Source: Candidatus Sulfobium mesophilum (GTDB lineage Bacteria > Nitrospirota > Thermodesulfovibrionia > Thermodesulfovibrionales > UBA6898). Taken from it: a stretch of 64,000 bases of DNA. The notes below the pieces were generated by a model that ran no database searches, had not been told where the DNA came from, and saw only the letters and a program-made list of their open reading frames with translations. Every line of letters starts with the position of its first letter. Within the stretch, counting starts at the first letter, position 1. Made by a program: the position numbers and the translations under genes. The stretch is from assembly GCA_900302705.1 (NCBI GenBank), contig OUUY01000001.1:42946-106945 (forward strand), in the 5' to 3' direction. Of the stretch, positions 50,323 through 50,598 are shown one piece after another.

Positions 50323-50598
50323 ATGGTGAAGATGGAAAATAAAAGTGAAATTGTTCTTTATACGTCTCCTAACTGAAGCGACTGTCACGCACTGAAGGAT
50401 TTTCTTTCAGCCAAAGGGATAAATTTCGTCCTTAAAGACGTCGGGACGGATAGGCGCGCTCGTGAGGAACTAATGGAAAAGTATGACAGGATGGCAACTC
50501 CGACGCTGGCAATCGGCGGTCGGGTATTTTTAGGCTTCAAGCAGAACAGGGAAGAGATTGAAAAAATTGTCCAAAGGATCATTGAAGGAAAATCATGA
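50323..50598 (+). CDS. Selenocysteine-containing glutaredoxin-like protein (predicted, TGA read through)
   Basis: A 91-residue frame from ATG 50323 (ATG 50332 also possible) to TGA 50596-50598, interrupted only by TGA at 50374-50376. It reads EIVLYTSPN-TGA-SDCHALKDFLSAKGI, then DVGTDRRAREELMEKYDRMATPTLAIGGRVFLGF and a final helix, which is the whole glutaredoxin fold including the cis-Pro motif ATPTLAIGG. Family members have C-x-x-C where this has TGA-S-D-C, so the TGA replaces the attacking cysteine and Sec is expected at position 18. A SECIS-like hairpin follows. The stop overlaps the copA ATG. It could reduce disulfides or handle Cu(I) for the ATPase (inference). Confidence 0.8.
50377..50412 (+). 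promoter_or_regulatory. Candidate bacterial SECIS element (glutaredoxin)
   Basis: Fifteen bases after the UGA, CTGAAGG (50392-50398) pairs with CTTTCAG (50404-50410) in a 7-bp stem with one G-T pair and a loop ATTTT (50399-50403); the two G at its top could open into the loop. The apex is about 25 bases from the UGA, within the range for bacterial SECIS elements. Loop sequence is less canonical than in the rhodanese copy. Confidence 0.5.

Follow-up and report, generated by a model that had tools for sequence, protein, structure and literature searches.

A probable selenocysteine-containing glutaredoxin-fold redoxin encoded directly before the copper ATPase gene copA in Nitrospirota

The window, by which we mean the whole 64,000-nucleotide stretch of Candidatus Sulfobium mesophilum DNA that was analysed, encodes on its plus strand a small glutaredoxin-fold redoxin immediately before a copper-type P1B ATPase, CopA (Table 1). 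The frame at 50323-50598 is interrupted by a single internal TGA, lying within P-N-TGA-S-D-C, and terminates at a TGA (50596-50598) that shares bases with the copA ATG (50595-50597) in an ATGA overlap. Translated from 50323 with the internal TGA written as U, the product begins MVKMENKSEIVLYTSPNUSDCHALKDFLSAKG and ends in KS. The first-pass annotation, made from the letters alone, had described a glutaredoxin on both sides of the TGA, with a stop overlapping the copA start and overlooked by ordinary gene calling: the overlap is directly legible in the sequence, the read-through product matches the Glutaredoxin profile PF00462 at 55.4 bits (cut-off 22.9), and the ORF listing holds no plus-strand ORF of at least 60 aa at this place. 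Of the extent it proposed, the frame and stop stand but the start is better moved: ATG 50332, which is preceded by GGTGA, stands at or close to the point where most homologues begin, and this start is therefore preferred over 50323.

Table 1. Features of the redoxin-copA locus (window coordinates)
Feature	Position	Strand	Remark
FG-GAP repeat protein, upstream	48335..50185	+	gene order kept in 16/26 loci
Glutaredoxin-fold redoxin ORF with internal UGA	50332..50598	+	50323 = possible longer start
UGA at first Cys position of CxxC, predicted selenocysteine	50374..50376	+	residue 18 from 50323
Codon of second (resolving) Cys of UxxC	50383..50385	+	invariant, alignment A1 (11 sequences)
Bacterial SECIS-like hairpin	50392..50410	+	15 nt after TGA; 50392-50399 paired with 50403-50410
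GAAGGA, candidate ribosome-binding site of copA inside redoxin gene	50584..50589	+	read from sequence
copA, copper-type P1B ATPase	50595..53057	+	TIGR01511 651.8 bits, cut-off 397

CopA is a predicted copper-translocating P-type ATPase by its TIGR01511 match together with its N-terminal HMA domains, two in number, with CxxC motifs at 50652-50663 and 50856-50867 (residues 20-23 and 88-91); it stays under the cut-off of the equivalog model NF007952 (771.8 of 1316 bits). Beyond it lie a 400-aa ORF on the minus strand (53067-54269), which clusters with ORFs at 6 of the 26 loci and which we take to resemble the nickel cofactor protein LarC, and a 756-aa ORF (54551-56821), whose C-terminal half carries near-identical KQFERKPAPEATP-like repeats. 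The redoxin itself belongs to PF00462, with a profile score over cut-off and a glutaredoxin fold in the predicted model (AlphaFold, mean pLDDT 77.9); the best solved match, both by fold (40% identity) and by profile, is PDB 7c10, Dithiol cGrx1. The nearest NCBIfam models are TIGR02196 (YruB), NF041212 and NF041211 (UXX-star), and membership in either group was rejected: the YruB score of 70.6 bits lies below the cut-off of 88.55, and the UXX-star scores reach 39.5 of 66 bits for NF041212 and 33 of 100 bits for NF041211.

Homologues were collected at three levels: 22 of 395 genomes of the phylum gave matches (20 with one in-frame TGA, two without), as did 17 of 27 in the window's own family, all with TGA, and 30 of 176 in the order, where 25 genomes had strong matches (23 TGA and 2 Cys) and six weak stop-free matches were also obtained, one being a second match in G375. 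The set analysed comprised the window gene and 25 others, after a weak TGA match in G317 that could not be aligned had been dropped. The identical codon is UGA in 24 of these 26 genes, from 24 genomes (17 in family f1, the window's own, six in f9 and one in f15), and Cys in the other two, both in f9. The frame is thus present in relatives, and the comparison of Cys with UGA that the first-pass annotation had called for agrees with its placing of the TGA on the first Cys of C-x-x-C. The substitutions on either side of the UGA are mostly silent: in the 6 usable of 10 same-genus pairs, mean dN and dS are 0.051 and 0.584 before it and 0.079 and 0.990 after it. Among 121 database homologues, the closest named of which are from Nitrospirae or Nitrospirota MAGs, 36 carry Cys at the codon, two carry Trp, and 83 start after it; we infer that these late-starting records are UGA genes. 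A tree labelled for Sec and Cys called for a minimum of seven label changes, with columns too few to give direction and one Trp row (P0008) scored as Sec.

An in-frame UGA where homologues have Cys is one mark of a selenoprotein gene; another, a conserved hairpin shortly 3' of the UGA, is also found here as a predicted SECIS-like element. The first-pass annotation had placed a 7-bp stem-loop 15 bases past the TGA; its place holds but its stem can be written as eight pairs. RNAalifold recovers the stem 15 nt past the UGA whether it is given f1, f9 or all 24 UGA genes combined. All eight pairs form in 16 of these genes and seven in a further seven; only three form in a single f9 gene (L090 of G251), while the two Cys genes retain five and six of the eight. 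L090 lacks the common stem and has another hairpin predicted; its same-genus counterpart in G289 has Cys. In 18 of the 24 genes the pair count is higher than in protein-preserving synonymous shuffles (P ≤ 0.05), and across 20 of the 24 genes 96.9% of the cells are paired versus at most 68.8% when the stem is slid. Total folding energy past the UGA stands out from synonymous shuffles in only two of the 24 and is thus uninformative here. Changes on both sides affect two pairs and six cells, a cell count that averages 1.4 in shuffles and that none of 500 attained; at least two doubly changed pairs also arose in 133 of the 500, and the stem shows fewer pair types than the shuffles do. Pairing is strong and covariation modest. 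If six outer pairs are taken, the loop begins with G in most sequences, which agrees with the bacterial SECIS consensus. A scan of 50100-50700 against Rfam returned two matches only, both far below the gathering scores.

Of the machinery for selenocysteine, whose absence the first-pass annotation had named as grounds for abandoning its reading, the protein genes are present in the same genome: SelA, SelB and SelD are all over cut-off, with selA adjoining selB on contig C73. The genome's own selD (L105 2394-2392, minus strand, G000:C114) has an in-frame UGA in CAGUAAK, which suggests that selenophosphate synthetase is a selenoprotein too. Of 41 genomes tested, 37 have SelB over cut-off, the exceptions being G188, G217, G142 and G317, and so do all 25 genomes in which the redoxin match is strong; G317, which has no SelB match, is the one with the weak TGA-bearing redoxin match. 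A tRNA-Sec with the UCA anticodon was found in 19 of the 25 genomes of the set. It was not seen in the window's own assembly (G000), which is 84% complete, nor in the UGA genomes G273, G213, G396, G277 and G410, and Rfam detected no tRNA-Sec at E 0.1 around the own-genome selA, selB and selD. Taken together, we regard it as very probable that the UGA of the window gene is decoded as selenocysteine.

The redoxin gene lies directly upstream of copA in the window and in 16 related genomes. All 17 redoxin genes found in f1 have copA directly downstream on the same strand, separated by -8 to +5 nt across several genera (copA starts being projected from tblastn). At the f9 loci copA lies 318-536 nt downstream in five of eight cases, with a reverse-strand ORF in between; in two of the eight no copA occurs over the 3.5 kb up to the contig end, and one contig ends after 459 nt. 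The region of the f15 gene has no copA. An operon-like arrangement is thus seen in one family only, since an opposite-strand gene intervenes in f9. That convergent ORF lies just after the redoxin at all eight f9 loci (L080, L081, L082, L084, L089, L090, L091 and L098), is 62 aa long in most, and is presumably ferredoxin-like, as judged from its CxxCxxC; a ferredoxin-like product of this kind could possibly serve as electron donor. The junction is also variable within f1: ten genomes have no redoxin match, eight of them with CopA of at least 70% identity, and in six of the ten the FG-GAP gene stands immediately before copA with the redoxin absent. A tblastn search at E 1 recovered no redoxin remnant before copA in these redoxin-less genomes, the two matches at E 0.18 in L143 falling within copA on the opposite strand. 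Since copA occupies the same site without the redoxin in six family genomes, the redoxin is best viewed as an accessory, removable partner. As to transcription, no plus-strand promoter-like site was found in 50150-50700, and a single minus-strand promoter-like site and, within the gene, a single terminator-like site both lie near the shuffled mean, for which reason the promoter/terminator argument was dropped.

From this position we infer a copper role for the redoxin, and propose that a selenocysteine-containing redoxin maintains the CxxC sites of CopA in the reduced state. That upkeep of these metal sites is its main job has, in our estimation, somewhat under even odds, and that both parts hold, the selenocysteine and the upkeep, has a probability of roughly 0.4. 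On this proposal SelB, bound to the hairpin, would deliver Sec-tRNA to the UGA; ribosomes would terminate at the redoxin stop and may initiate again at the copA ATG that overlaps it, which would yield redoxin and CopA together. The selenolate would attack the disulfide formed on oxidation of a CopA metal-binding domain, and resolution of the redoxin-CopA intermediate would fall to Cys21; as read from the sequence, an attacking U followed by a resolving C fits the reduction of oxidised CxxC sites. The redoxin would be recycled by a donor of the thioredoxin-reductase or ferredoxin type and not by glutathione, because none of 25 genomes gave a match to the glutathione synthetase gene gshB (TIGR01380), the control search being positive in E. 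coli. Dependence on glutathione is therefore doubtful, and glutathione made by the gshB route is an unlikely donor. Of the earlier idea of a Sec-glutaredoxin paired with a Cu(I) exporter, the adjacency of a predicted selenocysteine redoxin and a copper-type P-type ATPase survives, but not comfortably the glutathione-type glutaredoxin. The copper delivery and thiol defence suggested there would look the same in sequence as the reduction of copper sites. Coupling might go further, with copA being entered largely by ribosomes that have passed the Sec-read UGA and the overlapping TGA/ATG, making CopA a selenium-gated exporter: copper export would then rise only with selenium enough for the CopA-maintaining redoxin, and in selenium shortage a Cys form could be made instead with the help of a tRNA-Sec-like tRNA-Cys(GCA). 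We consider this improbable. copA has its own candidate ribosome-binding site, so that full dependence on read-through is unlikely and partial coupling possible.

The redoxin might instead be a general selenoredoxin of anaerobes that serves other thiol enzymes, such as peroxiredoxins and Msr, its adjacency to copA being inherited order. The genes upstream (47298-50185), the FG-GAP gene and one kept in 15 of the 26 loci that we take to be OmpA-like, are conserved too, so the redoxin-copA linkage may likewise be inherited order; we know of no link of either of these genes to copper. The lack of an adjoining copA in f9 and f15 points the same way, as does the best solved match, cGrx1, which has been proposed to reduce MsrA (PMC7642778). 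Set against this are the tight spacing in every f1 gene across several genera and the six family copA sites without the redoxin, which imply that an overlapping or nearly overlapping junction arose or was retained more than once; we hold the general role to be unlikely.

Less likely still is that the protein is a Cu(I) carrier, its U-x-x-C binding Cu(I) and passing it to the HMA domains of CopA. MxCxxC is the motif of copper chaperones and the redoxin lacks it, and the conserved U-x-D-C and TPT are features of redox enzymes. The location directly upstream of copA would suit a carrier, and the CxxC of human Grx1 is reported to bind Cu(I) and to transfer it to domains of ATP7B, but the same source reports that Cu(I) binding inhibits the activity of hGrx1 (PMC7057996).

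The preferred reading also presumes that the UGA is not mainly read as cysteine, by a tRNA-Sec-like tRNA-Cys(GCA) carried by SelB, which would yield an ordinary CxxC redoxin. UGA recoding by such tRNAs was reportedly described in 2018. The only over-cut-off tRNA-Sec match of the window's own genome carries a GCA anticodon (L001 1501-1591; G000:C115:5663-5753). Further GCA-bearing relatives occur in G321, G305 and G289, and, to judge from the alignments, also in G349 and G251 (L133, L134, L137, L135 and L136). This tRNA looks similar to the selC* tRNA-Cys, which has been placed in Nitrospirae among other phyla (PMC7609411), and it might, via SelB, read the UGA as Cys. Against cysteine as the main product stand the tRNA-Sec(UCA) of 19 of the 25 genomes, including the same-genus G321, which has both forms, the presence of selD and selA, and the fact that the GCA form was not seen in most UGA genomes among the loci examined; we regard it as very improbable. 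That the gene is dead or mis-sequenced, or its UGA read as Trp, can be set aside despite the stop codon and the Trp printed in P0008 and P0072 (likely a wrong code table, as the other full-length homologues have Cys): a UGA kept at the identical codon in 24 of 26 genes is no sequencing slip, silent changes prevail on either side, the hairpin is kept, and non-UGA homologues carry Cys, not Trp.

As for wider significance, the locus points to a likely selenoprotein group whose members are shortened by gene callers, as the late-starting database records indicate, and would connect selenium with the handling of copper in Nitrospirota. A link between selenium and metal handling has precedent, as copper-chaperone-like and Cu/Zn-efflux selenoproteins are among those listed in PMC13188914. 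UxxC Sec-glutaredoxins of PF00462 are likewise an already listed selenoprotein family, beside a distant Grx-like UxxT type that one review maps to TIGR02196 (PMC13188914, PMC9312934); versus the latter, the redoxin described here retains the second Cys. What is distinctive is its position before the copper ATPase in 17 of 17 f1 genes, in a setting without gshB; a search of mostly open-access literature by title and start of abstract returned no description of a Sec-glutaredoxin adjoining copA. The closest structural parallel, cGrx1 of Clostridium oremlandii, is a selenoprotein in its native form, the motif being U(or C)PxC with Sec at the first position as predicted here, and is reported to use glutathione as reductant, with MsrA as proposed substrate (PMC7642778); unlike it, the present redoxin has UxDC, occurs where gshB was not found, and is encoded before copA. 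A precedent for the proposed mode of action is human Grx1, likewise a glutaredoxin fold acting on the CxxC metal-binding domains of copper ATPases: it interacts with those of ATP7A and ATP7B, for which redox control and Cu(I) transfer have been reported (PMC7057996, PMC5039574). Human Grx1 has Cys and uses glutathione, and the available text of these sources reports no gene linkage to ATP7A or ATP7B. The redoxin-copA pair would thus represent a natural, gene-linked bacterial counterpart of the Grx1/ATP7 connection, and this in organisms whose genomes gave no match to the classical glutathione synthetase.
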